From the NCBI RefSeq assembly GCF_023091245.1, contig NZ_JAHWXN010000001.1:1426001-1490000 (forward strand): a DNA stretch of 64,000 nt, written 5' to 3'. The position numbers and the translations under genes are program-made. The stretch is from Microbacterium croceum (GTDB lineage Bacteria > Actinomycetota > Actinomycetes > Actinomycetales > Microbacteriaceae). The notes beneath the pieces are model-generated. The model was not told where the DNA came from. It worked only from the letters and a program-made list of their open reading frames with translations, and did no database searches. Each line of letters starts with the position of its first letter. Position 1 is the first letter of the stretch. Of the stretch, positions 19,920 to 37,942 are shown in pieces.

Positions 19920-23795
<3,876 letters not shown>

Positions 23796-23811
23796 GTACT
23801 GAGTGACTGAG

Positions 23812-23845
23812 AAGGCCCCAGGCGATTCGCCTGGGGCCTTCTTCG
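23812..23845 (+). terminator. rpoC terminator
   Basis: A 13-bp GC-rich stem (AAGGCCCCAGGCG, 23812-23824 / 23828-23840) with a 3-base loop is followed by TTCTTC. It lies 17 bases after the rpoC stop. Confidence 0.85.
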
Positions 23846-23871
23846 TGTCCGGGGGGGGTCTCGCCTTCGGA

Positions 23872-23928
23872 GGAGGTCGAGCGCTTTGACGGAGGTCGCG
23901 CGCTTTGACGGAGGTCGCGCGCTTTGAC
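23872..23928 (+). repeat. Three 19-bp tandem repeats downstream of rpoC
   Basis: Units at 23872-23890, 23891-23909 and 23910-23928 follow GGAGGTCGCGCGCTTTGAC. The first differs at one base and the last two are identical. A GG remnant of a fourth copy follows. The repeat lies in the intergenic space between the rpoC terminator and the convergent lipoprotein gene. Confidence 0.85.
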
Positions 23929-23989
23929 GGACAGAATCGGCGAAAGACTCCTTCTCTTCGGGAGAAAGCCGTCGGAACGGGCGATGCGA

Positions 23990-24669: not shown

Positions 24670-25599
24670 GTGAGCAACGTGACTTCTTCCGCCGGTTCCG
24701 TGGTCGTGATCGGCGATGCCCTGATCGACGAGCTCCGTGACGATTCCGGTGTGCGCGAGCTGGTCGGGGGTGCCGCGCTCAACGTGGCCGTCGGGCTGCG
24801 GCGGCTGGGGGTCGCGACGACTCTGATCGCGATGGTCGGTGACGACGAAGCGGGCGCGCACATCCGCGAGTACCTGTCCGACCACGGTGTGCGACTGATC
24901 TCGAGCGAGGCGCCGCACGGGTCGTCACGGGCGATCGTGCAGCGCGCCGCGAACGGCGAGCCGCAGTACGTCTTCAACGACGCGGCGCGGCAGCGCAGCA
25001 TCCGCTACTCCGACGAGGCGCGCGCTGCGATCGCGGATGCCGGTCTCGTCGCGATCAGCTGCTTCCCCTTCGACGTATCCGCCGAGGTGGACGCACTGGT
25101 CGACGCCCTCGGCGATGCCCGGGTCGCGGTGGACCCCAACCCCCGCACCGGCATGCTGAGCGATCGCGCGGAGTTCGTGCGCGGGTTCGAGCGTCTCGCC
25201 GCCGATGCGGCGATCGTGAAGGTCGGAGCGGATGACGCGGCCATCCTCTACGACGGCGACCTGGATGCGCTGCGGGTGCGCCTCCGCGACCTCGGCGCCG
25301 CCGCGGTGCTGGCCACGGCCGGAGCCGACGGCGCCACGATCGATACGGATGCCGGCGTCGCCTCGGCCCCGATCGCGCAGCTCCCCGGAGCCGTGATCGA
25401 CACGGTCGGCGCGGGGGATGCGACGCTCGCGGCAGTGTCCGAGGGCCTGGTCGCACAGTCGCCGACAGAGCTGGGAGAGTGGCGTGCGCTGCTGTCGCGG
25501 GCCATGGATGTAGCTGCTGCGACGTGCCGCGCGGAGGGCGGATTGCTGCGCACTCCGGAGTCGCTCGCGGACTCCGGCCGAGGCGTGAACGGCAGCTGA
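24670..25599 (+). CDS. PfkB family carbohydrate kinase
   Basis: The product has 309 residues. It carries the first PfkB signature GGAALNVAVGLRRLG (~34-48) and the second, DTVGAGDATLAAVSEG (~242-257), with the catalytic Asp in GAGD. It is a cytosolic ribokinase/fructokinase-type enzyme that phosphorylates a sugar hydroxyl. The exact sugar is not determined by these motifs. The start is GTG 24670 with TAGTGT at 24658-24663, 6 nt upstream. The gene is monocistronic before tRNA-Tyr. Confidence 0.85.
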   Translation: MSNVTSSAGSVVVIGDALIDELRDDSGVRELVGGAALNVAVGLRRLGVATTLIAMVGDDEAGAHIREYLSDHGVRLISSEAPHGSSRAIVQRAANGEPQYVFNDAARQRSIRYSDEARAAIADAGLVAISCFPFDVSAEVDALVDALGDARVAVDPNPRTGMLSDRAEFVRGFERLAADAAIVKVGADDAAILYDGDLDALRVRLRDLGAAAVLATAGADGATIDTDAGVASAPIAQLPGAVIDTVGAGDATLAAVSEGLVAQSPTELGEWRALLSRAMDVAAATCRAEGGLLRTPESLADSGRGVNGS

Positions 25600-25611
25600 C
25601 GGCTCGATTTC

Positions 25612-25640
25612 TTGCACCCGCGTCTGGCGGGTATGATTAT
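25612..25640 (+). promoter_or_regulatory. Promoter of tRNA-Tyr
   Basis: TTGCAC (25612-25617), 17 bases, GATTAT (25635-25640), 45 bases before the mature tRNA 5' end. The 16 bases just upstream (25596-25611) recur before tRNA-Thr. Confidence 0.5.
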
Positions 25641-25685
25641 CTTTCGTGCCCCCGGTTGGCTGTCCAAGTCGGACGGGTGCGCTCT

Positions 25686-25770
25686 GGCGAGTTACCCAAG
25701 CGGCCAAAGGGATCTGACTGTAAATCAGACTGCTCAGCATTCGGGGGTTCGAATCCCTCACTCGCCACCA
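25686..25770 (+). tRNA. tRNA-Tyr (anticodon GTA)
   Basis: The acceptor stem GGCGAGT (25686-25692) pairs with ACTCGCC (25760-25766), followed by an A discriminator and an encoded CCA (25768-25770). The anticodon loop CTGTAAA gives GTA. A long variable arm makes it a class II tRNA, as expected for bacterial tRNA-Tyr. The T-arm GGGGGTTCGAATCCC is intact. Confidence 0.95.
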
Positions 25771-25780
25771 GACCAGATAT

Positions 25781-25820
25781 GGCCCGGACGCACTGAGATC
25801 TCTCAGCATCCGGGCCTTTC
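25781..25820 (+). terminator. Terminator after tRNA-Tyr
   Basis: Outer stem GGCCCGGA / TCCGGGCC (25781-25788 / 25809-25816) and inner stem CTGAGA / TCTCAG (25793-25798 / 25801-25806), followed by TTTCTC. Confidence 0.8.
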
Positions 25821-25876
25821 TCGTTTCCACGAGGCGGTCGACGCGTCCCCGGCAAGTCCCCGGGCGGCTCGTCGGC

Positions 25877-26017
25877 GTGCGCAAACCGACAGCAGTCCCC
25901 GAATGGGATGAGGTCGTAGACGCCTCTGTGTCCGCTCTCCTCGGCGACTTGCGAGTCGAAGCCATCCTGGGCGATGCTCCGTCACTGCTTCCGGCGAAGA
26001 ACGACGTCGACGCCTGA
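25877..26017 (+). pseudogene. Possible gene relic after tRNA-Tyr
   Basis: The gap 25821-26085 holds no full gene, but GTG 25877 to TGA 26015-26017 reads as 46 sensible residues (VRKPTAVPEWDEVVDASVSA, then LLGDLRVEAILGDAPSLLPA, then KNDVDA), with GC-rich third positions. The frame stays open upstream without a start or ribosome site, so it may be the C-terminal remnant of a lost gene next to a tRNA, a common integration site. No family was recognised. Confidence 0.3.
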
Positions 26018-26085
26018 GCCACCAAGGCTCTCTCGTTCGCGGGCGAAGGACGTAGCCTTGATCGGTGTGCGTGCTCGCTTTCCCG

Positions 26086-26114
26086 TTGAAATAAAATAGT
26101 ATTGCCAATACTAT
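26086..26114 (+). promoter_or_regulatory. Promoter of the forward catabolic arm with overlapping operator
   Basis: TTGAAA (26086-26091), a 17-base spacer and TACTAT (26109-26114) form a promoter. The perfect 19-bp palindrome ATAGTATTGCCAATACTAT (26096-26114) covers the spacer and the -10 box. A bound regulator would block RNA polymerase. A variant of the same site recurs at 36550-36568. Confidence 0.75.
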
Positions 26115-26162
26115 GGTGAAGATCGGCGGGGCGGAGATGCCCCACAGCAGGGAAGGACGACG

Positions 26163-26948
26163 ATGACGACAGTTCTCTACACCGGAGGCGCCGGCCGCAT
26201 GGGCAGGGTGATCCGGGAGGGTCTCGCCGGTCGCTACGACCGCGTCGTGCTGTTCACGCGTCGCGCTCCCGAGGAGCCGTTGCACCCGGGGGAGGAGGTC
26301 GTCATCGGCGACCTCGCCGACCTCGACGGTCTTACGAAGGCAGCGGCGGGGGTGGATGTCATCGTGCACCTCGGCGGCATCGCCGATGAGTCGACCTACG
26401 AGAGCATCCGCACCTCCAACATCGACGGCACGTACCACGTGTATGAAGCCGCCCGCCGGGCCGGTGTGCGCCGCGTCGTCTACGCGAGCTCGAACCATGT
26501 CGTCGGTTTCCACGCCGCGACCGAGACCCTCGATGAGAGTGCCCCGCTGCGCCCCGACACCTTCTACGGCGTCTCGAAGGCCTTCGGCGAGGCGCTCGCG
26601 AGCCTGTACCACGACAAGTGGGGAGTGGAGTCGGTGCTGCTGCGCATCGGCACCTTCCGCCCCGCACCGGAGGACCAGCGCCAGCTCGCGCTGTGGCTGA
26701 GCTGGCGCGATGGCATCGAGCTCACCCGGTGCGCGATCGAGAGCGCACCGGTCGGCTGCCAGGTCGTCTACGGCTGCTCGAACAACACCGGTTCCTGGTG
26801 GAACGGGCAGGCCGGGTGGGATGCGATCGGCTTCGTCCCGAAGGACGACGCCGCCGATCACGCCGAAGGAGTCGACCGCGACGCCCCCGCGCCCCGCTAT
26901 CACGGCGGTGCGTTCACGGCATCCGACTACGAAGGAGGCATCTGGTGA
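26163..26948 (+). CDS. udh: NAD-dependent sugar dehydrogenase, uronate dehydrogenase-like (SDR)
   Basis: The product has 261 residues of the extended SDR fold. The nucleotide loop is TGGAGRMG (7-14), the catalytic set is Ser109/110 in ASSNH and Y135-xxx-K139 in FYGVSKAFGE, and SSNHVVGF is characteristic of uronate dehydrogenases. Those enzymes oxidise the C1 hemiacetal of a uronate to a lactone with NAD+. In this cluster the real substrate could be another aldose. It is the first gene of the forward arm and overlaps the next gene by GTGA. Confidence 0.8.
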   Translation: MTTVLYTGGAGRMGRVIREGLAGRYDRVVLFTRRAPEEPLHPGEEVVIGDLADLDGLTKAAAGVDVIVHLGGIADESTYESIRTSNIDGTYHVYEAARRAGVRRVVYASSNHVVGFHAATETLDESAPLRPDTFYGVSKAFGEALASLYHDKWGVESVLLRIGTFRPAPEDQRQLALWLSWRDGIELTRCAIESAPVGCQVVYGCSNNTGSWWNGQAGWDAIGFVPKDDAADHAEGVDRDAPAPRYHGGAFTASDYEGGIW

Positions 26949-27934
26949 CCACGCCGCAGAGTGTCGATGTACTCATCACGACCGCGTTCCTCGCCCCCGG
27001 CGACGAGGTCGATCGGATGCTGACCGCTGCCGGGCTGACGACCCGCCACGAGGCCGACCTCGCGGCGCTCTCCGCGGACGACCGCGCAGAGCTGCTCGGC
27101 GGAGTCCGCGCGATCATCGCCGGCACCCGCCCCCTGGGTGCCGAAGAGCTGACCCAGGCCGAGAACCTCAAGGTCGTCGTGCGCACCGGCGTCGGCTACG
27201 ACAGCGTCGACGTCGCTACCGCCACCCGTCGCGGCATCCCGGTCTGCATCACCGCCGGCGCCAACCGTCAGGCGGTCGCGGAGCACGTGTTCGCGCTGCT
27301 GCTGGCGTCGGCACGGCGGATCCCGGAGAACATCCGCAACCTCTCGGACGGACGCTGGGAGCAACTCACCGGACGCGAGCTCAGAGGCGCGACGCTCGGC
27401 ATCCTCGGACTCGGATCCATCGGCAAGGCGGTCGCCGCGATCGGGCGGGCGTTCGGCATGGACATCGTCGCGTACGACCCCTACTTCGACCAGGAGTTCG
27501 CTGCGGCGAACGGGGTGCGACGCGCCGACCTCGAAGACGTGCTGGCGCAGTCCGACTTCGTCACGCTGCATCTCTTCCTCGACGACTCGACCCGCAACCT
27601 CATCGATGCGCAGCGACTGGCGTTGATGAAGTCCGATGCGATCGTGATCAACACCGCCCGCGGTGGCATCATCGACGAGCAGGCGCTGGTCGAGGCCGTC
27701 GAGGCTGGTGTGATCGGCGGCGCAGCGCTCGATGTCTTCGCCGAGGAGCCGCTGTCGCCCACGAGCCCACTGCTGCACACACCGGGCATCCTCGCGACGA
27801 CCCACGTCGCCGGAGCCACCCGAGAGGCGCGAGGGGAGTCCGGCCGCATCGCCGCGACGACCGTGATCGACGTGCTCGGCGGGGGAGAGCCCCGGTTCGT
27901 CGTGAACCCCGACTACCAGGGGGTGCCGGCGTGA
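26945..27934 (+). CDS. D-isomer-specific 2-hydroxyacid dehydrogenase
   Basis: The product has 329 residues. NAD is bound by GILGLGSIGKAVA (~153-165). Catalytic residues are visible as the Arg in INTARGGIIDEQAL, the Glu in DVFAEEPL and the His in ATTHVAGAT. It belongs to the phosphoglycerate/glyoxylate-reductase-like group acting on D-2-hydroxyacids. GTG 26945 overlaps the udh stop and follows GAAGGAGG. In tetronate pathways the C2 oxidation is normally done by LtnD/DenD, a beta-hydroxyacid dehydrogenase family member. That gene is missing here and this one is a plausible substitute (inference). Confidence 0.85.
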   Translation: MTTPQSVDVLITTAFLAPGDEVDRMLTAAGLTTRHEADLAALSADDRAELLGGVRAIIAGTRPLGAEELTQAENLKVVVRTGVGYDSVDVATATRRGIPVCITAGANRQAVAEHVFALLLASARRIPENIRNLSDGRWEQLTGRELRGATLGILGLGSIGKAVAAIGRAFGMDIVAYDPYFDQEFAAANGVRRADLEDVLAQSDFVTLHLFLDDSTRNLIDAQRLALMKSDAIVINTARGGIIDEQALVEAVEAGVIGGAALDVFAEEPLSPTSPLLHTPGILATTHVAGATREARGESGRIAATTVIDVLGGGEPRFVVNPDYQGVPA

Positions 27935-28608
27935 TCACGCTCTACAGCGGACTCGTCGTCCGTCAGGCGCTCGAGGAGACCGTGATCCCGATCTTCGAGA
28001 AGGAGACGGGAGAACGCGTCGAGGCGACGTTCGAGCCGACCACGGTGCTGCTGAGCCGCATTGCAGAGGGCGCGCGCCCCGACCTCGTGCTGGGCGTCTC
28101 GTCATCGGTACGGGAGCTGGCCGACCAGGGAGTGCTCGGCCACGAAGGTCTCGCCGACATCGCGGTCTCGGCGGTCGGATTTGCCCGCTTGCCGGACAGC
28201 CCAGCGCCCGCCGACGAATCGGCGGAGAGCTTCCTCGAGTATCTGCGTGCGGCCGCGGCCGTCGCCTACACACTGAGCGGCGCGAGCGGGCTGCATTTCA
28301 TGGAGGTGCTGCGCGCGCACGATCTGCTCGACGCCATCGACGAGCGCGCCGTCCGCTTCGCTGCCGGGCTCACGGCCGAGGCTGTCGTCGACGGTCGCGC
28401 GAGCGTCGCGATCCAGCAGGTCAGCGAACTGCGCGCGGTGGCGGGACCGCACGTCGTGGCGCCGATCCCGCACGCGCTCCAGTCGTACGCCTCGTTCGCG
28501 ATCGGCGTGCGCCACGGAGCTCCGGGGGCGGCAGCCGCCTTCGCCGCGTCACTCGGCGCGGATGACGCGCGCCGCGCCTTCGCATCCGTCGGGCTGAGCG
28601 CCCCCTGA
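27931..28608 (+). CDS. ModA-like substrate-binding-fold protein without signal peptide
   Basis: The product has 225 residues. It resembles a type-2 periplasmic binding protein of the ModA/molybdate or extracellular-binding class: ITLYSGLVVRQALEETVIP, IFEKETGERVEATFEPTT, RPDLVLGVSSSVRELADQG, VAIQQVSELRAVAGPHVVAP. The first residue already begins the first beta strand, so there is no export signal and it should stay in the cytosol. No permease or ATPase accompanies it. It overlaps the dehydrogenase (GTGA). It may act as a small-molecule sensor or chaperone, but its role is unknown. Confidence 0.65.
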   Translation: MITLYSGLVVRQALEETVIPIFEKETGERVEATFEPTTVLLSRIAEGARPDLVLGVSSSVRELADQGVLGHEGLADIAVSAVGFARLPDSPAPADESAESFLEYLRAAAAVAYTLSGASGLHFMEVLRAHDLLDAIDERAVRFAAGLTAEAVVDGRASVAIQQVSELRAVAGPHVVAPIPHALQSYASFAIGVRHGAPGAAAAFAASLGADDARRAFASVGLSAP

Positions 28609-28679
28609 CAACCGACGCCGCAGGGCGTCATCACGGAAGCTGCGGCCGGACCCAGGTCGCACTGACGAGAAGAGAGAAC

Positions 28680-29666
28680 ATGAGAAAAGTCATCGTGGAC
28701 ACCGACACGGGAGTCGACGACGCGCTCGCACTGATGCTGCTGGCAGCCGACCCCGAGGTCGAGATCCTCGCGGCGATCAGTGTCTTCGGCAACTGCGAGA
28801 GCGAGCGTGCCGCCGACAACGCCCGGTATGTGCTCGACACCTGCGGCCGCACCGACGTGCCCGTGTACCGTGGCGCCTCGGTGCCGCTGCGGCAAGAGCT
28901 GCGGTTGAACCCGGGAATACACGGCGAGGACGGATTCGGGAACACCGGACTCCGGCCCGCGACTCCCGTGCCGGCCGAACCCGACGGCGTGCAGGTGCTG
29001 CTCGACCTGGTCGACGCACATGACGGCGAGATCGACTACCTCGCGCTCGGTCCGCAGACGAACCTCGCGCTCGCCCTGCAGCGGGAGCCGCGGCTGCTGG
29101 AACGGCTGCGCAGCACGACCATCGTCGGTACCCTCGGCCCTGCCCTCTACAACGACACCGAGCCGTGGGCGGATCGACGCTTCCGCGTCTCGCGTGACCC
29201 GAACGTGTCGTTCGACATCGACGCCGCGCAGGAGGTCGCGGGCCATGAGGGCGACGTGACCTGGTGCGGTCCGTATGTGACGCGGCAAGCGCTCGTCCCC
29301 GAGGACTTCTTCCTCGAGATCGCCGCGGAGACCGCCTCTCCTCCCGCGCAGCTGATCACCGCGATCAGCGCGGATTACGCGGGCTTCTACACGCGGTCGT
29401 ATCCGCAGCCGGATGAGCATCGGGTCATGGGCATCAACGACAGCCTCGCCGTCGCCACCCTGTTGCGACCGGAGCTCGTCGCAGGGGCTGTCCGTCGCCC
29501 GTTGCAGACCTTCCAGGACCCGGCGACCGGCGACCGCTACCTCGCCGGCGTGCATCCGTCGCGTGAGGAGACCCGTCCGCTGCACCGTGTCATCTTCGAC
29601 ATGGACTTCGACGGCGTGCTCCACCTCATCGGCGACACCCTCCGCCGCCCGCTTCCCTGGCGCTGA
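28680..29666 (+). CDS. Nucleoside hydrolase (IU-NH family)
   Basis: The product has 328 residues. The N-terminal calcium-site motif VDTDTGVDDALALML (D7, D9, D13, D14) defines the family. A second conserved block includes the acidic/aromatic stretch GINDSLAVATLLRP near the C-terminus. Family members hydrolyse the N-glycosidic bond of ribonucleosides to base plus ribose, and many relatives act on other N-ribosides. It is separated from the ModA-like gene by 71 bases and lies in the same direction, so co-transcription is likely. Its link to acid-sugar use is unexplained. Confidence 0.85.
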   Translation: MRKVIVDTDTGVDDALALMLLAADPEVEILAAISVFGNCESERAADNARYVLDTCGRTDVPVYRGASVPLRQELRLNPGIHGEDGFGNTGLRPATPVPAEPDGVQVLLDLVDAHDGEIDYLALGPQTNLALALQREPRLLERLRSTTIVGTLGPALYNDTEPWADRRFRVSRDPNVSFDIDAAQEVAGHEGDVTWCGPYVTRQALVPEDFFLEIAAETASPPAQLITAISADYAGFYTRSYPQPDEHRVMGINDSLAVATLLRPELVAGAVRRPLQTFQDPATGDRYLAGVHPSREETRPLHRVIFDMDFDGVLHLIGDTLRRPLPWR

Positions 29667-29717
29667 CCCACCCCCCCCGAAACAGGCATCACCCCCCCTG
29701 AGCGAAGGAGCTCTCCC

Positions 29718-31031
29718 GTGACGCAGGAAACCACCACCCGACCCGTCGACGACGCACGTTCGCGTCGCCACGACACCCGCAATCTCTTCGCGCTCAGCGC
29801 GGGCCACGCTCTCGAGTGGTTCGACTGGGCGATGTTCGGACTGCTCTCGGTCTATATCGGCAATGCCTTCTTCCCGGGCGACAGCCCCGCCTCGGCGACG
29901 CTCAACTCGCTCGCCGTCTTCGCGGTCGGCTTCATCTTCCGCCCGATCGGTGGAGTGGTCTTCGGCCTCGTCGCCGACCGCGTCGGTCGCAAGATCGTCA
30001 TGATCGGGTCGGTCGGCGTCACGGCCGCCGCGAGCCTCGTGATCGGCGTGCTGCCGACGCACGAGACCCTCGGCGTCTGGGCCGGCATCATCGTGCTGCT
30101 CATGCGCATCGTGCAGGGCATCTCGACCGGCATCGAGGCGCCGCTGAGCCAGGCCTACGGTCTGGAACTGGTGCCGGAGCGCCCTGGCTATGTCGCCGGC
30201 TTCATGGCGTTCTTCAACAACCTCGGCAACCTGCTCGCCCCGCTGACGGCTTTCGGCGCCAGCGCGCTCCTGGGCGCCACCGCGATGGGCGAGTACGGAT
30301 GGCGTATCCCGTTCATCCTCGGCGGCGTGCTCGGCGTCCTCGTGCTGTGGCTGCGACGCTCGTTGCCGGAGACGCTGCCCGTCGGCGTCGTGGGCAAGAA
30401 CGGCGAGGTCGCGACCCGCACCGAGACGATCGAGGTCTGGCGCGGCGTGCGGCACTACTGGCTGAGCGTGATCGCCGTCGTCTTCGTGATCGGCGCGATC
30501 ATGGCCTACAACTACACGTGGCTCTCCGGTCTGCCCTCCCTGGCGACGGGAGCGTTCGGCGAGGACCCCACCGCTGTGTTCGCGGTATCGACGACGATGA
30601 GCATCGTGCTCACCCTCGGAGCGCTCGTGCTGAGTCGCATCCTCGACAAGTGGGCGCTCTCGCGCTGGTTCCTGGTCGGACGCATCCTGGCGATCCCGAC
30701 GATCTTCCTGGTGCTGCTCTACAACGACGGCGGTATCGGTCCGCTCGCCGGTGTCATGCTGGGCGGATCTCTCGTGCTGCTGCTGAACCTGACGATCTAC
30801 AACGCCGTCGCCAACTCGCTGTTCCCGCAGCACATCCGCGGCACGGCGATGGGACTCGGCTACGGCGTCGGCGTCGCGCTCTTCGGCGGCACCGCCTCGT
30901 ACCTGTTCGTGTGGCTGCAGAGCATCGGCGCGGGCTGGATGTTCCCGATCTACATCGCGACCCTCTGCGCGATCAGCGTCGTGCTCTACGTGCTGGCGAA
31001 GAAGCGCAACGGAGTGTTCGTGGGTTCCTGA
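29718..31031 (+). CDS. MFS transporter, metabolite:H+ symporter type
   Basis: The product has 437 residues with 12 predicted helices. NLFALSAGHALEWFDWAMFG and the loop GLVADRVGRKIVMIGSV (D-x2-GRK motif A) are typical of the metabolite:H+ symporter branch, which imports small carboxylates, osmolytes and sugar acids. The start is GTG 29718 with GAAGGAG 8 nt before it. It is the last gene of the forward arm and ends at a shared hairpin. It probably imports the substrate of the forward arm, or provides a second route besides the reverse-arm MFS carrier. Confidence 0.85.
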   Translation: MTQETTTRPVDDARSRRHDTRNLFALSAGHALEWFDWAMFGLLSVYIGNAFFPGDSPASATLNSLAVFAVGFIFRPIGGVVFGLVADRVGRKIVMIGSVGVTAAASLVIGVLPTHETLGVWAGIIVLLMRIVQGISTGIEAPLSQAYGLELVPERPGYVAGFMAFFNNLGNLLAPLTAFGASALLGATAMGEYGWRIPFILGGVLGVLVLWLRRSLPETLPVGVVGKNGEVATRTETIEVWRGVRHYWLSVIAVVFVIGAIMAYNYTWLSGLPSLATGAFGEDPTAVFAVSTTMSIVLTLGALVLSRILDKWALSRWFLVGRILAIPTIFLVLLYNDGGIGPLAGVMLGGSLVLLLNLTIYNAVANSLFPQHIRGTAMGLGYGVGVALFGGTASYLFVWLQSIGAGWMFPIYIATLCAISVVLYVLAKKRNGVFVGS

Positions 31032-31041
31032 CCCCGACCAT

Positions 31042-31093
31042 ACGACGAAGGGCGTGCGGGTTCCGATTCCGGAGCCCACACGCCCTTCGTCGT
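31042..31093. terminator. Bidirectional terminator between the two catabolic arms
   Basis: A 15-bp perfect stem (31042-31056 / 31079-31093, ACGACGAAGGGCGTG) extends inward through GGG/CCC to a loop of about 15 bases. It lies between the convergent MFS and OtnC genes and can serve both. Confidence 0.8.
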
Positions 31094-31104
31094 GTGCGAG
31101 GCGA

Positions 31105-31725
31105 TTAGTTCGCTGGACGCAGCGCGTCGGCCTGAGCGGGAGTCAGCGGGCGGGTGGCCAGGCCGCGGAGCAGCAGGAAGAGCTTCGCCGTCTCCTCGAG
31201 CTCCTCGAGTGCATCCATGGCCGCGGAGAGAGTCCGACCGGCGACCACGGGACCGTGATTGCTGAGCAGCAGCGCCACGTGGTCGCGCGCGGTGCGCTCG
31301 GCGAGCGTCTCCAGTGCGTCGTCCCCCGGTGCGTGGTACGGCAGCAACGGGAGACGGCCGATGCGCATCGCGAAGTAGGCCGTGAGCGGGGGGAGCGCAT
31401 CGTTCGGGTCGAGGTCCGCCAGGCACGATACGGCAGCGGCATGCGTGGAGTGGGTGTGCACGACCGCCTGTGCGCCGGGTCGGGCACGCAGCACGGCCGC
31501 GTGCAGGAAAGCTTCCTTCGACGGTGCGGGGCCCGACAGGTGCCGGCCCCGGTCATCGATCAGCGAGAGCTCGTCGGCGGTCACGGTGCCCAGGCTCGAT
31601 CCGGTCGGGGTGACCAGGATGCCGCCCTCTGCGCGCACCGAGAGGTTGCCCGTGCTGCCGTGGGTGAGGCCCCGGTCGAACAGAGACCGGGCGGCCCGGA
31701 TGACGTCGTCGCGCTGAGCGTTCAC
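31105..31725 (-). CDS. otnC: 3-oxo-tetronate 4-phosphate decarboxylase (class II aldolase family)
   Basis: The product has 206 residues. The class II aldolase/adducin fold has GSTGNLSVR (23-31), catalytic Glu71 in PSKEAFLH, zinc ligands H90 and H92 in VVHTHSTH and H157 in SNHGPVV. Next to OtnK and OtnI, the family assignment is OtnC, which releases CO2 from 3-oxo-tetronate 4-phosphate to give dihydroxyacetone phosphate. A fuculose-phosphate-type aldolase is the alternative. It overlaps OtnK by ATGA and is the last gene of the reverse arm. Confidence 0.85.
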   Translation of the reverse strand: MNAQRDDVIRAARSLFDRGLTHGSTGNLSVRAEGGILVTPTGSSLGTVTADELSLIDDRGRHLSGPAPSKEAFLHAAVLRARPGAQAVVHTHSTHAAAVSCLADLDPNDALPPLTAYFAMRIGRLPLLPYHAPGDDALETLAERTARDHVALLLSNHGPVVAGRTLSAAMDALEELEETAKLFLLLRGLATRPLTPAQADALRPAN

Positions 31726-32978
31726 GACCCGCTCCCTTCGGAGGCGCGCACCAGAAGCTCGGGGTCGCCGAAGTTGCCCGATTTCAGCAGGAATCGCGCG
31801 CCGTCATGGCCGTGGATCCACGGCACTCCGCGGGCTGCTTCCGCGCCGATCTCGCCGCCGCGCACCGCGAGTGCGGCGATCACCGCACCGGAGGTCTCGC
31901 CGCCGGCCGTGATGAAGCAGGAGACACCGCGCTCGCGGACGCCCTGGGCGACCTGCGAGATCGCGTCTTCCAGGATGGCGGCCGATCGCTCGACGCCGAG
32001 CTGCTCCTGCACCTCCTGCAGCTCCTCGGGCGGCAGCGAGGCGTAGATGAGAGGCGCAGGCGCGTCCCGGTCGAGCGCGTCGTACCAGGCGAGCGCCCGG
32101 GCCGCGAGCGCGGTCGGATCCTGATCGGCGAGGGCGTCGAGGCGGTGCATCGGACGTCCGGCGTTCCGCATCGCATCGATCTGCTCCAGCGTGCGCCGCG
32201 AGCAGCTGCCGGCGAGCACGATCGTGCGGCCGGTGTCATCGGCGGGCGGAGTCGGATGCTCCGTGGATGGCCGGCTCTCGACGACGGCGCGGGCGAGGGC
32301 TCCGGCGAGCCCTGCCGCTCCCGCGAGCAGGGGCTCGTGCACAGCGGCCCGGGCGATCGCCAGCAGGTCGTCGTCGGTGACCGCGTCGGGGAAGAGGTAG
32401 CGGGCGTCGTGGGCGGAGTCTGCGATCGCCGAGCGCAGCGCATCCGCGCCGGCATGCACCAGCTCGAGGGGGAGCACCCGGCTCGACGGAGCGGTCAGCT
32501 GACGATCGAGCAGCCGCACCAGGTCGGAGTCGCGCATCGGCGTGAGCGGATGGTCGCGCATGGGCGACTCGGCGAGAGGGACGCCGTTCACCAGGAGCTG
32601 TCCGCCGGAGACCGTGCGGCCGTGTTCGGGAGAGCTCGGCGTCGTGACCACACGTCGCGCGTCGACGAGAGACGCGAGCGCCTCAAGCACCGGGCCGATG
32701 TTCCCGTCGGCGGTCGAATCGAACGTCGAGCAGTACTTGAGGTACAGCTGATCCGCGCCCTGCGCCTGCAGAGCCCTCGCCGCCGTGAGCGACTGGGCGA
32801 CGGCATCCGCTGCGGGGATCGTGCGGGTCTTGAGGGCCACGACGCCCACGTCCCACGTCGGGTCGATCGAGTGGTCGCGCGGCTCTCCGAACACGATGCC
32901 GGTGCGCAATCCCTGACGGCGGCAGGCCACCGCGACGTCGGTTCCGCCGGTCACGTCGTCGGCGATGATCCCGATCAT
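31722..32978 (-). CDS. otnK: 3-oxo-tetronate kinase (DUF1537/four-carbon acid sugar kinase)
   Basis: The product has 418 residues. The N-terminal domain begins IGIIADDVTGGTDVA (ADDxTG motif) and has KYCSTFDSTADGNIGP (~100-115), a hallmark of OtnK. The C-terminal nucleotide-binding domain has the GGETSGAVIAAL stretch and KSGNFGDPE at the end. The family phosphorylates C4 acid sugars with ATP in L-threonate, D-threonate and D-erythronate catabolism. It overlaps both neighbours by ATGA, consistent with a tightly coupled operon. The stereochemistry of the substrate cannot be read from sequence. Confidence 0.88.
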   Translation of the reverse strand: MIGIIADDVTGGTDVAVACRRQGLRTGIVFGEPRDHSIDPTWDVGVVALKTRTIPAADAVAQSLTAARALQAQGADQLYLKYCSTFDSTADGNIGPVLEALASLVDARRVVTTPSSPEHGRTVSGGQLLVNGVPLAESPMRDHPLTPMRDSDLVRLLDRQLTAPSSRVLPLELVHAGADALRSAIADSAHDARYLFPDAVTDDDLLAIARAAVHEPLLAGAAGLAGALARAVVESRPSTEHPTPPADDTGRTIVLAGSCSRRTLEQIDAMRNAGRPMHRLDALADQDPTALAARALAWYDALDRDAPAPLIYASLPPEELQEVQEQLGVERSAAILEDAISQVAQGVRERGVSCFITAGGETSGAVIAALAVRGGEIGAEAARGVPWIHGHDGARFLLKSGNFGDPELLVRASEGSGS

Positions 32979-33649
32979 CGGGCGGACCCCGCGGCGAGGA
33001 GGTGGCGCAGGGCGACGGCGGAGCTGGCCGGACCCGACAGCACCGGGATGCCGAGTACATCTGCCAGCTCGCGCGCTGCGGGAGCCAGCGAGTACTGGGC
33101 CAGGAAGACGGCGTCCATCTGCGCGGCGTGCGGAGCGCAGGCGTCCGACAGCGCGGCGACCAGCGCTCGGGAGTCCTGGGCCTTCGTGGCAGCCATGGCG
33201 GCGGGCACCGTGATGCCGGTCACGGCCGTGGCGCTTCCTGCCTCGTGCAGGGTCGTCTCCAAGCGTTCGACGGAATCGTCTCTGGCGCCGTCGAAGGAGG
33301 CGACCACCAGCACGGTGCCGTATCCGGCCATCGCGATCTCACGGAACGCGGCCTCGTCGGGGGCCAGCACCGGCGCATCGCGCCGGACGTCGGAGGCGAC
33401 GGGTCCGTAGAGGGAGCAGGTGAGGAGAACGCCGTCGGCGCCTTCCGCCAGGGCGTGGTCGATCAGGCGCACCATCCGCGCGCGGAGTGCGTCGTCGAGA
33501 CCACCGCGGTCGTCGGCGTCGCTGAGCAGACGATCGTCGAGGATGTTCCAGACCTCGGCCTCGGGGTACAGCTCGTCGAGCGCCGATCGAGCCGGCGCGA
33601 TCGCCGCGGTGACGGCGCTGATCAGGGCGATTCTCGGGGGAGTGGTCAT
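32975..33649 (-). CDS. Aspartate/glutamate racemase-like protein
   Basis: The product has 224 residues of the Asp/Glu/hydantoin racemase superfamily. The first catalytic Cys is in VLLTCSLYGPVAS (~79-91). The second expected Cys position reads DAVFLAQYSLAPAA, with Gln/Tyr/Ser instead of Cys, so a two-base racemase mechanism looks impaired. Single-Cys relatives include decarboxylases and isomerases. It overlaps OtnK (ATGA) and OtnI (ATGA). In the operon it may epimerise or tautomerise a tetronate intermediate (inference). Confidence 0.7.
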   Translation of the reverse strand: MTTPPRIALISAVTAAIAPARSALDELYPEAEVWNILDDRLLSDADDRGGLDDALRARMVRLIDHALAEGADGVLLTCSLYGPVASDVRRDAPVLAPDEAAFREIAMAGYGTVLVVASFDGARDDSVERLETTLHEAGSATAVTGITVPAAMAATKAQDSRALVAALSDACAPHAAQMDAVFLAQYSLAPAARELADVLGIPVLSGPASSAVALRHLLAAGSAR

Positions 33650-34437
33650 GCGGAGAGCTCCTTCATCCAGCCGAGGCCGGTCACGGTGTCGGTCAGCGGC
33701 TGATACTCGCAGCCGATCCAGCCGTCGTAGCCCGAGTCGCGGATCGCTGTGAAGACACGATCGAACGCGATCTCTCCCGTGCCCGGCTCATGGCGGCTCG
33801 GCGGGTCGGCGATCTGGAGGTGTGCGATCTGCTCGCGGTGCGCGAGGAACGTGGGGATCAGGTCGCCCTCGTCGATCTGCGCGTGGTAGAAGTCCATCAG
33901 CAGGCCGGTCTGCTCGCGGCCCACGGCGTCGACGACGGCAGCGGCCTGTGCTTGCGTCTCGAGGATGAAGCCGGGGGCGTCGCGCTTGTTCTGCGGTTCG
34001 AGCAGCAGGCGGATGCCGGTGCCGCGCGCCTGCTCGGCCGCCCAGGCGATGTTCGCGGCGTAGAGCGCGAAGGCCCGGTCCCGCTGCACGTCGTCGGGGA
34101 CGATGCCCCCGACGACGTGCAGGAACGGGGCCTCGAGGGCCGTGGCGTACTCGAGACCCCGCAGCACCCCGTCGCGGAAGGCCTGCTCAGCGCCGGGAAC
34201 ACACGCGAGTCCTTGGCGGGTGGGGGAACCGGCGGGACCCATCGGCGTGTTGATCAGCACCTGCGCGAGACCCGCCTGCGCCAGCAGCTCCCTGAGACGG
34301 CCCGGCGCGTACTCGTATGGCGCCGGGAACTCGACGGCGCGGAAGCCGGCGCGGGCAGCGGCGTCGAACCGCTCCTCGAAGGGGTGCTCGGTGAACAGCC
34401 ATTTGAGGTTGGCATCGAAGCGCAGCGGGGTGGTCAT
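33646..34437 (-). CDS. otnI: 2-oxo-tetronate isomerase (hydroxypyruvate isomerase family)
   Basis: The product has 263 residues of the AP-endonuclease-type TIM barrel. RFDANLKWLFTEHPFEERFD opens the domain. Metal/active-site positions are visible as Glu in LLLEPQNKRDAPG, Asp in LLMDFYHAQIDEGD, His in HLQIADPPSRHEPGTGEI and Glu in WIGCEYQP. Close to OtnK and OtnC it fits OtnI, which converts 2-oxo-tetronate to 3-oxo-tetronate. Hydroxypyruvate isomerase is the alternative. ATG 34437 is chosen, with CAGGAG 7 nt upstream. A longer open frame to 34674 lacks coding character. Confidence 0.85.
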   Translation of the reverse strand: MTTPLRFDANLKWLFTEHPFEERFDAAARAGFRAVEFPAPYEYAPGRLRELLAQAGLAQVLINTPMGPAGSPTRQGLACVPGAEQAFRDGVLRGLEYATALEAPFLHVVGGIVPDDVQRDRAFALYAANIAWAAEQARGTGIRLLLEPQNKRDAPGFILETQAQAAAVVDAVGREQTGLLMDFYHAQIDEGDLIPTFLAHREQIAHLQIADPPSRHEPGTGEIAFDRVFTAIRDSGYDGWIGCEYQPLTDTVTGLGWMKELSA

Positions 34438-34480
34438 GTCATCTCCTGAGGGGCGGATGTCGTGCGCGGTCAGGCGCGGG

Positions 34481-35218
34481 TCAGCGGATGCTCCGATCGA
34501 CCTCGCCGCGGACGCCGTCCGCGAAGAACCCGATCCGAGAGGACTGCTCCGCCAGGCGCACGGCGTCGGCTCCGTCGAGGGCCAGTGCCACATCGTGTCC
34601 GGGCACGAGCACGCCGGATGTGTCGCGCAGCAGCGACCGGAGGCGGTCGACGCTCGCGCGGCTGGCGTCGGCATCCATCGTGGAATCGACGACGAGGGTG
34701 TTGAGCTCGAACACGTTCTTCACTGCGTCTCCCGCGAACACGTGCGAACGCTCCGCGGCCTCCACATGGAAGGCGAGGTGACCGGGGGTGTGCCCCGGAC
34801 TGGCGATCGCCGTGATGCCCGGCAGGATCTCCTGTCCGTCGCGCATCCGTTCGACGCCCTCGTGACGACGCAGCAGCTCCTGGATGTGCAGATCGGGGAT
34901 GAACTTGGTCCCGGCAGGCTGCGTCGACGCCCAGGCGAGCTCTTCCTCACCGACCCAGGTCGTGGCGTTCGGGTACATCGTGAAGTTGCCCACGTGATCC
35001 CAGTGCAGGTGCGTCACCACGACGTCGGTGATGTCACCGGTGTCGAGGCCGAGGTCGGCCAGACCCTCGTGGATCAGCGGGATGTAGGCCGGAGGGCCGG
35101 CGTCGATGAGCACGCGACGGTCCCCCTGGTGGAGCAGCCAGAGACTGCTCCACCCGAAGGCGCCGTGCGAGGAGGACTTCCCGGGGAAGCCGTCGACGAG
35201 CGAGTGGAGTTCGTACAT
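34481..35218 (-). CDS. MBL-fold metallo-hydrolase (lactonase-like)
   Basis: The product has 245 residues. The metallo-beta-lactamase motif is HLHWDH (H70, H72, D74, H75), followed by SPGHTPGHL, FAGDAVK and VPGHD, giving a full dinuclear zinc site. The sequence resembles quorum-quenching lactonases of the AhlD/AiiA type more than glyoxalases. In this operon a lactonase would open the sugar lactone made by the uronate-dehydrogenase-like SDR. This is inference, and signal-lactone hydrolysis cannot be excluded. It lies 3 nt from the MFS gene and 43 nt before OtnI. Confidence 0.8.
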   Translation of the reverse strand: MYELHSLVDGFPGKSSSHGAFGWSSLWLLHQGDRRVLIDAGPPAYIPLIHEGLADLGLDTGDITDVVVTHLHWDHVGNFTMYPNATTWVGEEELAWASTQPAGTKFIPDLHIQELLRRHEGVERMRDGQEILPGITAIASPGHTPGHLAFHVEAAERSHVFAGDAVKNVFELNTLVVDSTMDADASRASVDRLRSLLRDTSGVLVPGHDVALALDGADAVRLAEQSSRIGFFADGVRGEVDRSIR

Positions 35219-35221
35219 GCG

Positions 35222-36529
35222 TCAATCCTGCGCCTTCGAGGCCAGGGATCCCCGCGAGAACTTCGCGGTCAGCGTCGCGCCGACGGCGAGCAAGAGACCG
35301 GCGAGGATGAACGGGATCGTGTAGGAGCCCGTTCCGTCGACGAGGAAGCCGGTGACGATCGGCGCGAGCAGCCCGAAGGTGTTGCCGCCCACCTGGACCA
35401 GCGCGAACACGCGTCCCTTCGAGGGGTTGCCCTGGATCAGGTCGCCGGCGAGGGCGAAGTTCAAGGTCATCGCCGAGGTGATCATGATGAGGACCCACGC
35501 GATCAGGATGACGATCGCCACCACGTCGTCGACGAACGGGAGCACCAGCAGAGGGAGTGCAGCCACCATGGCCGTGGTCACGAGCTTGCGGCGGCCTCCC
35601 GAGTGCAGCTTGTCGGCGGGGACCAGGCGGTCCGCGAGGTACGCCAGGAAGATGCTGCCGACGGCGGCCACGGCATACGTGATGCCGGTGACCCAGCCGG
35701 AGCCGAGGCCTTCCAGCCCGCGCTCCTTCTCGAGGTAGAGAGGCATGAACGAGAGGAAGAGATAGTTCGTGTACGCCGCACAGCCGTGGGCGATCAGCAG
35801 GCTCCACATCGTGCGTGTGCGCAGCAGGACCGGGAGGGTGAGGGGCGTGGTGGAGTATCCCTGCGCAGCGACCTGCGGGTCGACCCGCTCACGCAGGATG
35901 TACTCCCGCTCGGACGGCTTCAGCCACTTGGTCTTCTCAGGGGTGTTGTACACGAGCAGCCAGATGAGACCGAAGACGATGCCGACGCCACCGAGGATGA
36001 AGAACGAGGCGTGCCAGCTCAGCGAGGCGATCAGATACGCGGCGACCACGGCGCCGATCGCCGGGCCGAACAGTGCCCCCGCGTTGAGCAGGCCGGTGAA
36101 CCGGGCGCGCTCCTGGCGCGGAGCCCACTCGGAGATGACGGAGTTGCCGACCGGGTACATGGGCGCCTCACCGGCACCGAGCAGCAGGCGGGCCACGACG
36201 AGCACGGCGAGTCCGGTGGCGGCTCCGGTCATGCCCGCCCCGATCGACCAGACGATGATGCTGATCGGCAGCAGGAGGCGAGCGCCCCAGCGATCCGCCA
36301 TGAGCCCCACCGGGATCATCAGCGCGAGGTAGGCCCAGCTGAAGACGGAGGTGAGGATGCCGTACTGCCCCGTCGTGAGGTCGAACTCCTCGATGATGTG
36401 GCTGCCGGCGATGGACCAGTTGATGCGGTCCATGTAGCCGAGCGTCACCAGGAGCATGAGGCCGATGCCGATGATGTATCGGCGGCCTCCCACGGCTGTG
36501 CGCGTGGCTGAGGCGAGTTGTTCAGTCAT
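35222..36529 (-). CDS. MFS transporter, anion:cation symporter (GudP-like) type
   Basis: The product has 435 residues with 12 helices. The N-terminus YIIGIGLMLLVTLGYMDRINWSIAG matches the D-R-x-N/I-x-A signature of ACS-family carriers for glucarate, galactonate and other sugar acids. The motif A loop GLMADRWGARLLLP follows. ATG 36529 has GAAAGGTC upstream, and the longer frame to 36700 lacks support. It is the first gene of the reverse arm, directly behind the operator at 36550-36568, so it probably imports the inducing acid sugar. Confidence 0.87.
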   Translation of the reverse strand: MTEQLASATRTAVGGRRYIIGIGLMLLVTLGYMDRINWSIAGSHIIEEFDLTTGQYGILTSVFSWAYLALMIPVGLMADRWGARLLLPISIIVWSIGAGMTGAATGLAVLVVARLLLGAGEAPMYPVGNSVISEWAPRQERARFTGLLNAGALFGPAIGAVVAAYLIASLSWHASFFILGGVGIVFGLIWLLVYNTPEKTKWLKPSEREYILRERVDPQVAAQGYSTTPLTLPVLLRTRTMWSLLIAHGCAAYTNYLFLSFMPLYLEKERGLEGLGSGWVTGITYAVAAVGSIFLAYLADRLVPADKLHSGGRRKLVTTAMVAALPLLVLPFVDDVVAIVILIAWVLIMITSAMTLNFALAGDLIQGNPSKGRVFALVQVGGNTFGLLAPIVTGFLVDGTGSYTIPFILAGLLLAVGATLTAKFSRGSLASKAQD

Positions 36530-36549
36530 CGTTGACCTTTCGGAAAGAA

Positions 36550-36568
36550 ATACTATCGACAATAGTAT
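36550..36568. promoter_or_regulatory. Operator of the reverse catabolic arm
   Basis: The 19-bp site (minus strand ATACTATTGTCGATAGTAT) matches the forward-arm palindrome at 15 of 19 positions: ATA-x-TATTG-x-C-x-ATA-x-TAT. It lies 21 nt upstream of the MFS ATG, between that gene and the GntR gene, and is one of the few AT-rich islands here. Confidence 0.7.
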
Positions 36569-36629
36569 TGCGACTGTAGCGGGATGGACGATCCGATCGC
36601 AAGATCCCGGGGCCGGGACCGCGCGGGGA

Positions 36630-37295
36630 TCACGGGTCGAGCAGGCGTCCCGCCGAGGCCTCGATGTGCTCGCGCATCCGCTCGGTCGCCGACTCGGCAT
36701 CCCGTGCGCGGATCGCGTCGAGGATCGCGCGATGCTCCGGAGCGGCCCACTTGGCGCCCGTGCGTCCGAGCTTCGAGAACAGGCGGAAGCGCTGGATCTG
36801 ACCGGCGAGCGTCGTGTACGCGTTCTCGAGGAACGGGTTGCCCGCGTGCGCGGCGATCAGACGGTGGAACTTGTCGTCCGAGCGCCAGTAGATGCGGAAG
36901 CCCTCGGTCTCGCGGTCGGCGTGATCGATCGTGGACTCGAAGTCGCGGACGGTCTCTTCCAGCGCATCCACGAACGCGTCGGTGGCCCGAGCAGTGGCGG
37001 CGGCGGCGAGGTGAGGCTCGAGCAGGAGGCGTGCATCGCGCAGCTGGCGCACCTCTGTGAGGCTCATCATCGGAGCGACGCGGTAACCGCGCAGCGCCTC
37101 GCGGTGCACGAGCCCGGTGTGCTCCAGGCGGGCCAGGGCCTCGCGCAGGGGAGTGGGGCTGACGTTGAGCTCGCGCGACAGGGCGCCGATGTTCAGGGGC
37201 TCTCCTGCGCCGCGGATGCCGTCCATGAACTGGCTGAGCAGTACTTCGTACATCTGGTCTGCGACGGGCGTGCGGGATCCGCTCTCTGCCACCAT
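36630..37295 (-). CDS. GntR family regulator, FadR/FCD type
   Basis: The product has 221 residues. A winged HTH (~15-75: ADQMYEVLLSQFMDG, LNIGALSRELNVSPTPLREAL, HTGLVHREALRGYRV) is followed by an all-helical FCD ligand domain (~85-215) with the metal-type pattern RDARLLLEPHLA and DDKFHRLIAAHAGN. Such proteins are usually repressors released by a carboxylate or acid sugar. ATG 37295 follows GGAGGAGG. It sits beside the operator it probably binds, and a perfect TTACCGGTAA palindrome at 37331-37340 lies in its own upstream region. Confidence 0.85.
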   Translation of the reverse strand: MVAESGSRTPVADQMYEVLLSQFMDGIRGAGEPLNIGALSRELNVSPTPLREALARLEHTGLVHREALRGYRVAPMMSLTEVRQLRDARLLLEPHLAAAATARATDAFVDALEETVRDFESTIDHADRETEGFRIYWRSDDKFHRLIAAHAGNPFLENAYTTLAGQIQRFRLFSKLGRTGAKWAAPEHRAILDAIRARDAESATERMREHIEASAGRLLDP

Positions 37296-37403
37296 TGCCT
37301 CCTCCGGCCGCGAAGGGCCTCGACCCATTCTTACCGGTAACCGGCCGATGCGCCCGCAAGCGCGGCTGGCGCGTGTGGTGCCCTGGCTTCATAGACTGGT
37401 CGG

Positions 37404-37898
37404 ATGCGAGCGCTCACCGAGACCGAAGTGCGGGCTTCGTTCGTCAACGCGGACCCTGATGAGCTGCGTGTCATGGAGATGCCGCACGACTTCCTCCTCG
37501 TCGACTGGGACTACCTCGACTTCTTCGCCTGGCGCGATCCCGGCGCAGGTGCTCGGGGCTACGTGCTGATCCAGCAGCAGGACCGCATCGCAGGCGTCGT
37601 GCTGCATGCCTCGGGTCCAGGGCGTGCACGATCGGGCATGTGCAACATCTGCCACACGATGCAGCCGGGCAATCAGGTCGCGCTGTTCTCCGCACGTCGA
37701 GCGGGCGAGGCGGGGCGACGCGGCGACTCGGTCGGCACCTACCTCTGCGCCGACCTGTCCTGCCACGAGAGCGTGCGGCTGGCACATCCGCTCGCCCCCA
37801 ACGAGGTCAGGGCACCCGGGCAGATCGACTTCCGCCTCGACGGCACCCGCCGACGCATGGAGGCCTTCGTCTCCCGGGTCTGGGAGGCGCAGGACTGA
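37404..37898 (+). CDS. FBP-domain (EF-G-binding, treble-clef) protein
   Basis: The product has 164 residues. The C-terminal half has a treble-clef zinc finger, CNICH (~80-84) and YLCADLSCHE (~114-123), typical of the FBP/FusB C-terminal fold. FusB-like proteins bind elongation factor G and free it from fusidic acid-stalled ribosomes. The chromosomal actinobacterial members lack a proven role. TAGACT at 37392-37397 is 6 nt before ATG 37404, consistent with leaderless translation. Confidence 0.75.
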   Translation: MRALTETEVRASFVNADPDELRVMEMPHDFLLVDWDYLDFFAWRDPGAGARGYVLIQQQDRIAGVVLHASGPGRARSGMCNICHTMQPGNQVALFSARRAGEAGRRGDSVGTYLCADLSCHESVRLAHPLAPNEVRAPGQIDFRLDGTRRRMEAFVSRVWEAQD

Positions 37899-37942
37899 TC
37901 GCGATTACGCTGGAGGCAACGTCCGTGCTCGAAGGAGATGCC

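Follow-up and report, generated by a model that had tools for sequence, protein, structure and literature searches.

A 64,000-nucleotide stretch of the Microbacterium croceum genome (positions 1426001-1490000 of its contig; whole genome 3.68 Mb), hereafter the window, carries two convergent operons, 26163-31031 on the plus strand and 36526-31105 on the minus strand, which meet at about 31.1 kb. They combine the kinase OtnK and the decarboxylase OtnC of tetronate catabolism with a nucleoside hydrolase, two dehydrogenases, a lactonase-like hydrolase, a protein of the Asp/Glu racemase fold (Rac) and a ModA-fold protein. This gene cluster is real and more coherent than a first-pass annotation of the same DNA had held: both arms share an operator that is unique to them in the genome, OtnK and OtnC of the window belong to their named families, and the gene set, including its additional members, recurs in other actinobacteria. 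Our preferred reading, held tentatively and short of calling it probable, is that of a regulon under GntR control that degrades the sugar part of a ribofuranosyl N-glycoside by a five-carbon (C5) route. As judged from the open-access literature searched, in which no work tying nucleoside hydrolases to tetronate, ribonolactone or ribonate catabolism was found, the route seems undescribed.

According to this reading, a transporter of the major facilitator superfamily (MFS), metabolite:H+ symporter (MHS) type, would import an N-riboside, which the nucleoside hydrolase would split into its base and a C5 sugar; in this enzyme's clade the sugar may carry a 5-carboxyl group (riburonate). A short-chain dehydrogenase/reductase (SDR) resembling uronate dehydrogenase would oxidize C1 and yield a lactone, the metallo-beta-lactamase (MBL)-fold enzyme would open it to the acid (ribarate if the sugar is riburonate), and the D-2-hydroxyacid dehydrogenase (D-2-HDH) would convert the acid to the 2-oxo acid. 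Once the OtnI-like isomerase had turned the 2-oxo into the 3-oxo acid, Rac, with or without the ModA-like protein, would decarboxylate this beta-keto acid to 3-oxotetronate, the presumed substrate from which OtnK and OtnC would form dihydroxyacetone phosphate (DHAP) and CO2, so that the carbon balance would be C5 to C3 plus two CO2. Plain tetronate needs neither Rac nor a ModA-like protein in the known pathway. A C5 dicarboxylic acid would need one extra step: if it were oxidized at C2, its ketone moved to C3 and one carboxyl group removed, the product would be exactly 3-oxotetronate, a scheme suggested by chemistry and gene content. Viewed as modules, a core would handle the acid, SDR and MBL enzyme would be an add-on converting the sugar to the acid, and N-glycosidases and deaminases would be further add-ons that free the sugar from nucleosides. 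Every substrate upstream of 3-oxotetronate, the identity of the decarboxylating protein and the uronate detail are what we infer here. The specific version in which a 5'-carboxylated nucleoside (riburonoside) is degraded oxidatively, by a nucleoside hydrolase with an arginine-bearing loop, a C5 uronate dehydrogenase, a SerA-like ribarate oxidation and a single-cysteine decarboxylase with a cytoplasmic ModA-fold partner, appears doubtful to us. Ascorbate and eritadenine were also considered as substrates on chemical grounds, without gene evidence. A ribarate/arabinarate epimerase is known from another superfamily, as described in the available part of PMC11770544.

All genes named in the first-pass annotation are present, and its claim of a single two-armed regulon is borne out by the operator. 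The perfect inverted repeat ATASTATNNNNNATASTAT precedes each arm, as operator 1 (ATAGTATTGCCAATACTAT, 26096-26114, plus strand) and as operator 2 (ATACTATCGACAATAGTAT in plus-strand letters, 36550-36568, assigned to the minus strand), the latter between the GntR gene and the reverse-arm operon. When the whole genome was scanned with up to two mismatches allowed, two sites were returned, both exact and one per arm, and the reversed-pattern control gave none. Operator 1 overlaps the -10 element of a sigma-70-like promoter (TTGAAA-17-TACTAT, 26086-26114, plus strand) for the forward arm; this is the sole promoter-like match in 25500-38000 and, since shuffled sequences gave 0.6 on average, it is weak when taken alone. 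The presumed repressor of both arms is the GntR/FCD protein encoded at 36630-37328 on the minus strand (PF07729, PF00392), immediately upstream of the reverse arm. The open reading frame (ORF) 36456-37340 on the plus strand overlies this gene, a correction to the first-pass annotation. The forward arm runs in the order SDR, D-2-HDH, ModA-like gene, nucleoside hydrolase and MHS-type MFS transporter (29718-31031; PF07690; TIGR00883 252.8 bits, cut-off 443.45). The reverse arm begins with another MFS transporter (35222-36526, minus strand), whose best NCBIfam model is a D-galactonate transporter subfamily (TIGR00893, 247.8 bits, cut-off 395), and continues with the MBL hydrolase, the OtnI-like protein, Rac, OtnK and OtnC. 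Five of the nine gene junctions are 4-base overlaps; the remaining gaps measure 3, 43, 51 and 71 bases.

We compared the cluster across overlapping samples of 198 genomes of the genus, 398 of the family, 396 of the order and 394 of the class, together with one scan of named genomes. Gene presence here means a tblastn match at E<=1e-6 to the queries used, a criterion that can overlook unrelated replacements. The ModA-like gene, which served to delimit the set, is rare: strong matches were found in 11 of 198 genus, 12 of 398 family and 5 of 396 order genomes, the window's own genome being included each time. Thirty-one ModA-like loci, designated by L numbers, were assembled: the 11 strong genus matches (the window among them, and genome G196 represented by L013), 6 and 11 more from two other samples, and L010, L133 and L134. 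Of these, 28 were compared; L129, L131 and L132 were excluded since no OtnK/Rac cluster surrounds them, and five weak ModA-like matches (E 8e-9 to 3e-4; G056, G075, G104, G154, G182) lie outside the compared set. The nucleoside hydrolase type of the window occurs in 16 of the 28 loci, and in all 16 of these the MBL, SDR, D-2-HDH, OtnI, Rac, OtnK, OtnC and ModA-like genes are present and a GntR relative adjoins the cluster. Twelve of the 16 are built as one same-strand run, and four (the window, L068, L069 and L013, the last from Microbacterium sp. GCS4) in two arms. The other 12 loci contain Rac (10), OtnI (10), OtnK (8) and D-2-HDH (7), and three more of them have an Ldh_2-like dehydrogenase (about 30% identity) where D-2-HDH was not matched. 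L134, L167 and L130 possess D-2-HDH, Rac, OtnK, OtnC and the ModA-like gene without SDR and MBL; OtnI is also present in L134 and L167, in neither of which an N-glycosidase was detected in the stretch available, and a TRAP-type DctM gene lies near the cluster in L134 and L130. Because L134 and L167 retain both Rac and the ModA-like gene without SDR, MBL or N-glycosidase, these two proteins still accompany what would be metabolism of the acid alone.

Exact copies of the operator were found at eight of the 28 loci (the window, L068, L069, L013, L083, L010, L159, L164) and copies with one mismatch at two (L077, L163). In L164, exact operators stand before the MBL gene and before an ADP-ribosylglycohydrolase gene, which places an N-glycoside enzyme under the same control. 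The latter site (L164:7989-8007, in another genus) heads a run of ADP-ribosylglycohydrolase, ABC-transporter and PfkB genes, a second N-glycoside module. At L077, a copy with two mismatches precedes a pair consisting of an MFS transporter and a second nucleoside hydrolase.

The nucleoside hydrolase itself (28680-29666, plus strand; PF01156, 183.6 bits) has kept the aligned motifs DTDTGVDDA and FGN and a later ND pair, which we take to be the calcium-binding positions of the family. It carries an arginine-rich insertion of eight residues, DRRFRVSR, in the ribose-binding loop. The stretch DRRFRVSRDPN is invariant in 15 of 15 aligned copies and was also seen in the 16th (L057, from the genome of L083), which was aligned separately. 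The canonical Asn...Glu/Ser-x-Asn pattern of the ribose loop, whose residue roles we in part assume, is altered: the last Asn is kept, and the first is aligned to Asp, in an uncertain placement. As far as the accessible parts of these sources go, nucleoside hydrolases depend on the 5'-OH of the substrate (PMC12648331), the loop in which the arginine-rich stretch sits holds the ribose in canonical enzymes, O-ribosides are also accepted (both PMC11241417), and D-riburonic acid is naturally found as a terminal residue in exopolysaccharides of rhizobia (PMC8227245). Further N-glycoside genes belong to the picture. ADP-ribosylglycohydrolases replace this nucleoside hydrolase in L010 and L164, L128 encodes an adenosine deaminase and two nucleoside hydrolases, a second nucleoside hydrolase lies near 11 of the 16 loci, and a cytidine-deaminase-like gene, a weak family match (Pfam 23.7 bits, cut-off 25), lies near 10 of them. 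Two more nucleoside hydrolases are encoded in the M. croceum genome outside the regulon (contig 1, 845203-845985; contig 2, 251242-251937).

Among 40 solved relatives, the best match of the SDR (26163-26948, plus strand; PF01370) is uronate dehydrogenase (UDH) 3rft with 203.5 bits. At the position of R174 in Agrobacterium UDH, by our assumption the carboxylate-binding residue, an arginine is present in the window SDR, in 20 of the 23 SDRs counted across the clusters (that of L166, which is truncated, was excluded) and in all 16 of the nucleoside hydrolase clade. From these likenesses we propose an aldose/uronate 1-dehydrogenase that would yield a lactone. The MBL-fold protein (34481-35218, minus strand; PF00753), with HLHWDH in its translation, has the AttM lactonase as best NCBIfam model (62.4 bits, cut-off 390) and is proposed to act as a lactonase. 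The SerA-like D-2-HDH (26945-27934, plus strand; PF02826, PF00389) scores best with the PGDH model (273.6 bits, cut-off 454) and reaches 104.4 bits with PdxB (cut-off 434). SerA acts on 2-hydroxyglutarate, and ribarate is a trihydroxyglutarate; oxidation of the acid to the 2-oxo acid is the proposed role.

The last stage of the trunk looks like the conversion of 3-oxotetronate to DHAP because the window's OtnK and OtnC both pass equivalog cut-offs. OtnK, a 3-oxo-tetronate kinase of the DUF1537 type (31722-32978, minus strand; PF07005, PF17042; motif KYCSTFDST), scores 426.7 bits with NF043035 (cut-off 350), and six of six members tested of this cluster class are over that value. OtnC, of the Aldolase_II type (31105-31725, minus strand; PF00596), reaches 269.5 bits with NF043034, the model for 3-oxotetronate-4-phosphate decarboxylase (cut-off 250). 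The OtnI-like TIM barrel (33646-34437, minus strand; PF01261) obtains 285.0 bits with the 2-oxo-tetronate isomerase model NF043033 against a cut-off of 325, and 286.6 bits with the hydroxypyruvate isomerase model against 353.45. It stays below the 2-oxo-tetronate isomerase cut-off in six of six members of the class (that of L128 scored as a slightly shortened piece), as expected if the substrate differs from 2-oxotetronate, and the isomerase preceding OtnK may thus act on another compound.

These scores also bear on the four-carbon (C4) route that the first-pass annotation had put forward, in which a tetrose or its glycoside is converted via SDR to a lactone, via MBL to tetronate and via D-2-HDH to 2-oxotetronate, then by OtnI, OtnK and OtnC to DHAP, with the rest being accessory. 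Such a route requires no new chemistry; OtnK and OtnC of the window pass 3-oxotetronate cut-offs, the two best models of the OtnI-like protein are hydroxypyruvate isomerase and 2-oxo-tetronate isomerase, and PdxB, a member of the D-2-HDH family, acts on 4-phosphoerythronate. We nevertheless consider it unlikely. It leaves unexplained the conserved nucleoside hydrolase, the ADP-ribosylglycohydrolases and the deaminases, just as it does the presence of Rac and the ModA-like protein beside the trunk in loci that lack genes for sugar processing, and it sits poorly with an OtnI-like protein under cut-off in every member scored. Since nucleoside hydrolase, ModA-like protein and Rac, formerly listed as having no role in known pathways, are conserved members of a set that is complete in 16 of 28 loci and find no place in the C4 chain, a tetrose or tetronate start is not supported as the best reading and is probably too narrow. 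The enzyme order SDR, MBL, D-2-HDH stays plausible apart from that start. Likewise, the description of a complete lower tetronate pathway holds for OtnK and OtnC and is somewhat overstated as a whole, because the OtnI-like protein is not a clear 2-oxo-tetronate isomerase. The reported absence of the usual dehydrogenase stood up to the search: no LtnD or DenD gene lies under the operator, and there is no third operator site in the genome. The four PF14833 proteins in the genome score 134.9, 147.1, 122.0 and 106.5 bits, all under the L-threonate dehydrogenase cut-off (350), and a copy elsewhere under the same operator was rejected from the operator scan together with these scores. Such a copy was the genomic finding that the first-pass annotation had named as refuting its claim, so this check came out in its favour. 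The window SDR gives 41.3 bits with the DenD model (cut-off 325); the genome's remaining SDRs were not screened for the DenD type.

Rac (32975-33649, minus strand; PF01177) is the candidate for the extra step. Its AlphaFold2 model (pLDDT 95.4) has the Asp/Glu racemase fold, with structural matches to allantoin, glutamate and hydantoin racemases and to arylmalonate decarboxylase (AMDase; 20-22% identity); phmmer against PDB sequences returned no matches up to E=1. Aligned by eye with the AMDase motifs given in the available part of PMC4996985, C78 of Rac falls on the Gly74 position and Q185 on the Cys188 position, with LTCSLYGP and VFLAQYSL in place of LMGTSLSF and ILLSCGGL. Cys78 and Gln185 are each found in 64 of 64 sequences. 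According to the available parts of PMC4996985 and PMC6563808, racemases have two catalytic cysteines and AMDase one, and AMDase G74C/C188G variants with one shifted cysteine still decarboxylate, 25 to 65 times slower in one comparison (PMC6563808). Because the second catalytic position is Gln throughout, racemization with two cysteines is unlikely and Rac as a plain two-Cys racemase was rejected, as was Rac as a plain AMDase, given the different Gly74/Cys188 pattern and motifs. By analogy, our best single guess is a cofactor-free 3-oxo-acid decarboxylase.

The ModA-like protein (27931-28608, plus strand; PF13531) likewise gave a confident AlphaFold2 model (pLDDT 95.4) with ModA-fold matches. 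Its first strand occupies residues 2-6, no signal peptide was seen before it by eye, and the window cluster has no ABC genes; molybdate transport was rejected. Since no signal peptide was seen, the protein probably works in the cytoplasm, as an enzyme or as a partner that binds an acid, and we propose that it may be a partner of the decarboxylation step. Given that 4,5-dihydroxyphthalate decarboxylase may share the binding-protein fold, a ModA-like protein that is itself the decarboxylase was also considered.

A different assignment would make Rac an epimerase or isomerase that feeds other stereoisomers or branched acids into the C4 pathway, with the nucleoside genes forming a co-regulated but separate salvage module. 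The racemase fold agrees with this, as do loci in which Rac accompanies OtnK/OtnC and an isocitrate/isopropylmalate-dehydrogenase-type or Ldh_2 enzyme without a ModA-like gene, and the PfkB kinase beside the N-glycosidases of L164. We give the idea little credence in view of the invariant Gln at the second catalytic Cys position and of the nucleoside hydrolase, whose gene, in all 16 loci that have it, lies in one run with those of SDR, D-2-HDH and the ModA-like protein.

Rac also marks a second cluster class (L071, L073, L075, L076, L135, L136), in which it lies near an isocitrate/isopropylmalate-dehydrogenase-type enzyme in six of six loci, with OtnK plus OtnC in five, Ldh_2 in three, GlpX in two, and citrate-type or ABC transporters. 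OtnI was matched in L136 only (30%), and L071 and L075 carry two Rac copies. This class may represent a further undescribed route by which an acid enters the 3-oxotetronate trunk. More distant Rac homologues (L085, L087, L138, L139, L141) show the single-Cys/Gln pattern in five of five cases, and in L085, L138, L139 and L141 matches to a DUF1537-like kinase (28-33%) are located 6-8 kb from the homologue.

Several observations weigh against the preferred C5 route, which is drawn from sequence and gene content. As to the regulon, the operator was not found at up to two mismatches in 18 of the 28 loci and is therefore not universal. Nine of the 28 loci, some at contig ends, showed no N-glycosidase with the tblastn queries used. 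L164 has no OtnC match, and its PfkB kinase downstream of the ADP-ribosylglycohydrolases means that the sugar might instead be phosphorylated. The two nucleoside hydrolases of L128 are canonical and lack the Arg insertion, so 5'-carboxylation cannot be general, and no source from which Microbacterium would obtain riburonosides is known to us. The best NCBIfam model of the SDR is Azf glucose-6-phosphate dehydrogenase (153.1 bits, cut-off 400), and in three of the 23 SDRs (L127, L128, L133) Asp replaces the R174-aligned Arg, an Arg following three residues on. Only one of five OtnC proteins tested in this cluster class is over the cut-off; those of L079 (232.1), L010 (232.2), L128 (190.5) and L134 (241.9) stay below 250, with starts set from BLAST matches, which may cost a few bits. 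These scores weaken the conversion of 3-oxotetronate to DHAP a little. Another role for Rac is possible in L071, L073 and L135, where it occurs with OtnK/OtnC near the isocitrate/isopropylmalate-dehydrogenase-type enzyme without a ModA-like gene. Finally, the distant ModA-like paralogues of L129, L131 and L132 reside in unrelated settings; their neighbours are a thiamine-diphosphate enzyme with an aldehyde dehydrogenase, an Ldh_2 dehydrogenase, and an intradiol dioxygenase/Fe-ADH set.

Part of this would fit a C5 aldonate route, in which a plain riboside is processed via ribose, ribonolactone and ribonate to 2-oxo- and 3-oxo-pentonate, OtnK then phosphorylating at O5 and OtnC releasing erythrulose 4-phosphate. 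It agrees with the adenosine deaminase and the canonical type of nucleoside hydrolase found in L128, with the absence of the Arg from the SDRs of L127, L128 and L133, and with OtnC scores below the C4 cut-off in four of five loci. Against it stand OtnK, which exceeds the C4 cut-off in six of six cases, and the lack of a job for Rac and the ModA-like protein; moreover, no erythrulose-4-phosphate isomerase is found among the identified cluster genes, although no dedicated search was made. We regard it as quite unlikely.

Upstream of the forward arm lies a tRNA-Tyr gene (gta; 25686-25770, plus strand), a possible insertion boundary; the gene before it (24670-25599) encodes a PfkB kinase. The interval 19920-24164 contains two very long ORFs, of 1291 and 1411 amino acids, that overlap on opposite strands, the reverse one without a Pfam match. 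A plasmid search gave a single match, covering 1%.

If the preferred N-riboside route is correct, nucleoside degradation would be linked with acid-sugar catabolism through an oxidative route that does not use phosphorolysis. Functions would be gained for two unnamed families, the single-Cys racemase-fold proteins beside DUF1537 kinases and the cytoplasmic ModA-like proteins, and keto acids derived from sugars would have a natural decarboxylase that needs no cofactor.

Known systems share individual parts with the regulon. The nucleoside hydrolase has the family (PF01156) and the presumed calcium-site motifs in common with its relatives and differs by the arginine-rich eight-residue insertion in the ribose loop. 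Rac has the fold of the AMDase/Asp-Glu racemase superfamily and differs by its single Cys at the Gly74 site and Gln at the Cys188 site. D-apionate catabolism is a sugar-acid route with a DUF1537 kinase, the 3-oxo-isoapionate kinase OiaK. This kinase family is common to both, and the D-apionate route was ruled out because OtnK obtains 81.7 bits with the OiaK model (cut-off 700). The oxidative uronate pathway ends in 2-oxoglutarate; it shares the UDH-family SDR, whereas the steps downstream of it would here lead to 3-oxotetronate. There, UDH yields an aldaro-lactone which is then opened, as outlined in the accessible part of PMC4476818. A three-step L-threonate bypass employs 2-OtnK and an F_bP_aldolase-type 2-OtnC (PMC12540250, in the part available, citing Guo 2024). 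Its DUF1537 kinase is again the common element, and it was ruled out since OtnC of the window is of the Aldolase_II type (PF00596) and an OtnI-like gene is present. The four-step L-threonate/D-erythronate pathway (LtnD or DenD, OtnI, OtnK, OtnC), in which DenD acts as dehydrogenase, shares OtnK, the Aldolase_II OtnC, the OtnI-like protein and the expected product DHAP. Apart from DenD, this pathway and its use of an Aldolase_II-type OtnC are likewise given in the available part of PMC12540250. The regulon described here differs from it in having D-2-HDH, SDR and MBL instead of LtnD/DenD and in the added nucleoside hydrolase, ModA-like protein and single-Cys racemase-fold protein; the new part is a DUF1537 acid-sugar pathway that carries two proteins without an assigned role.

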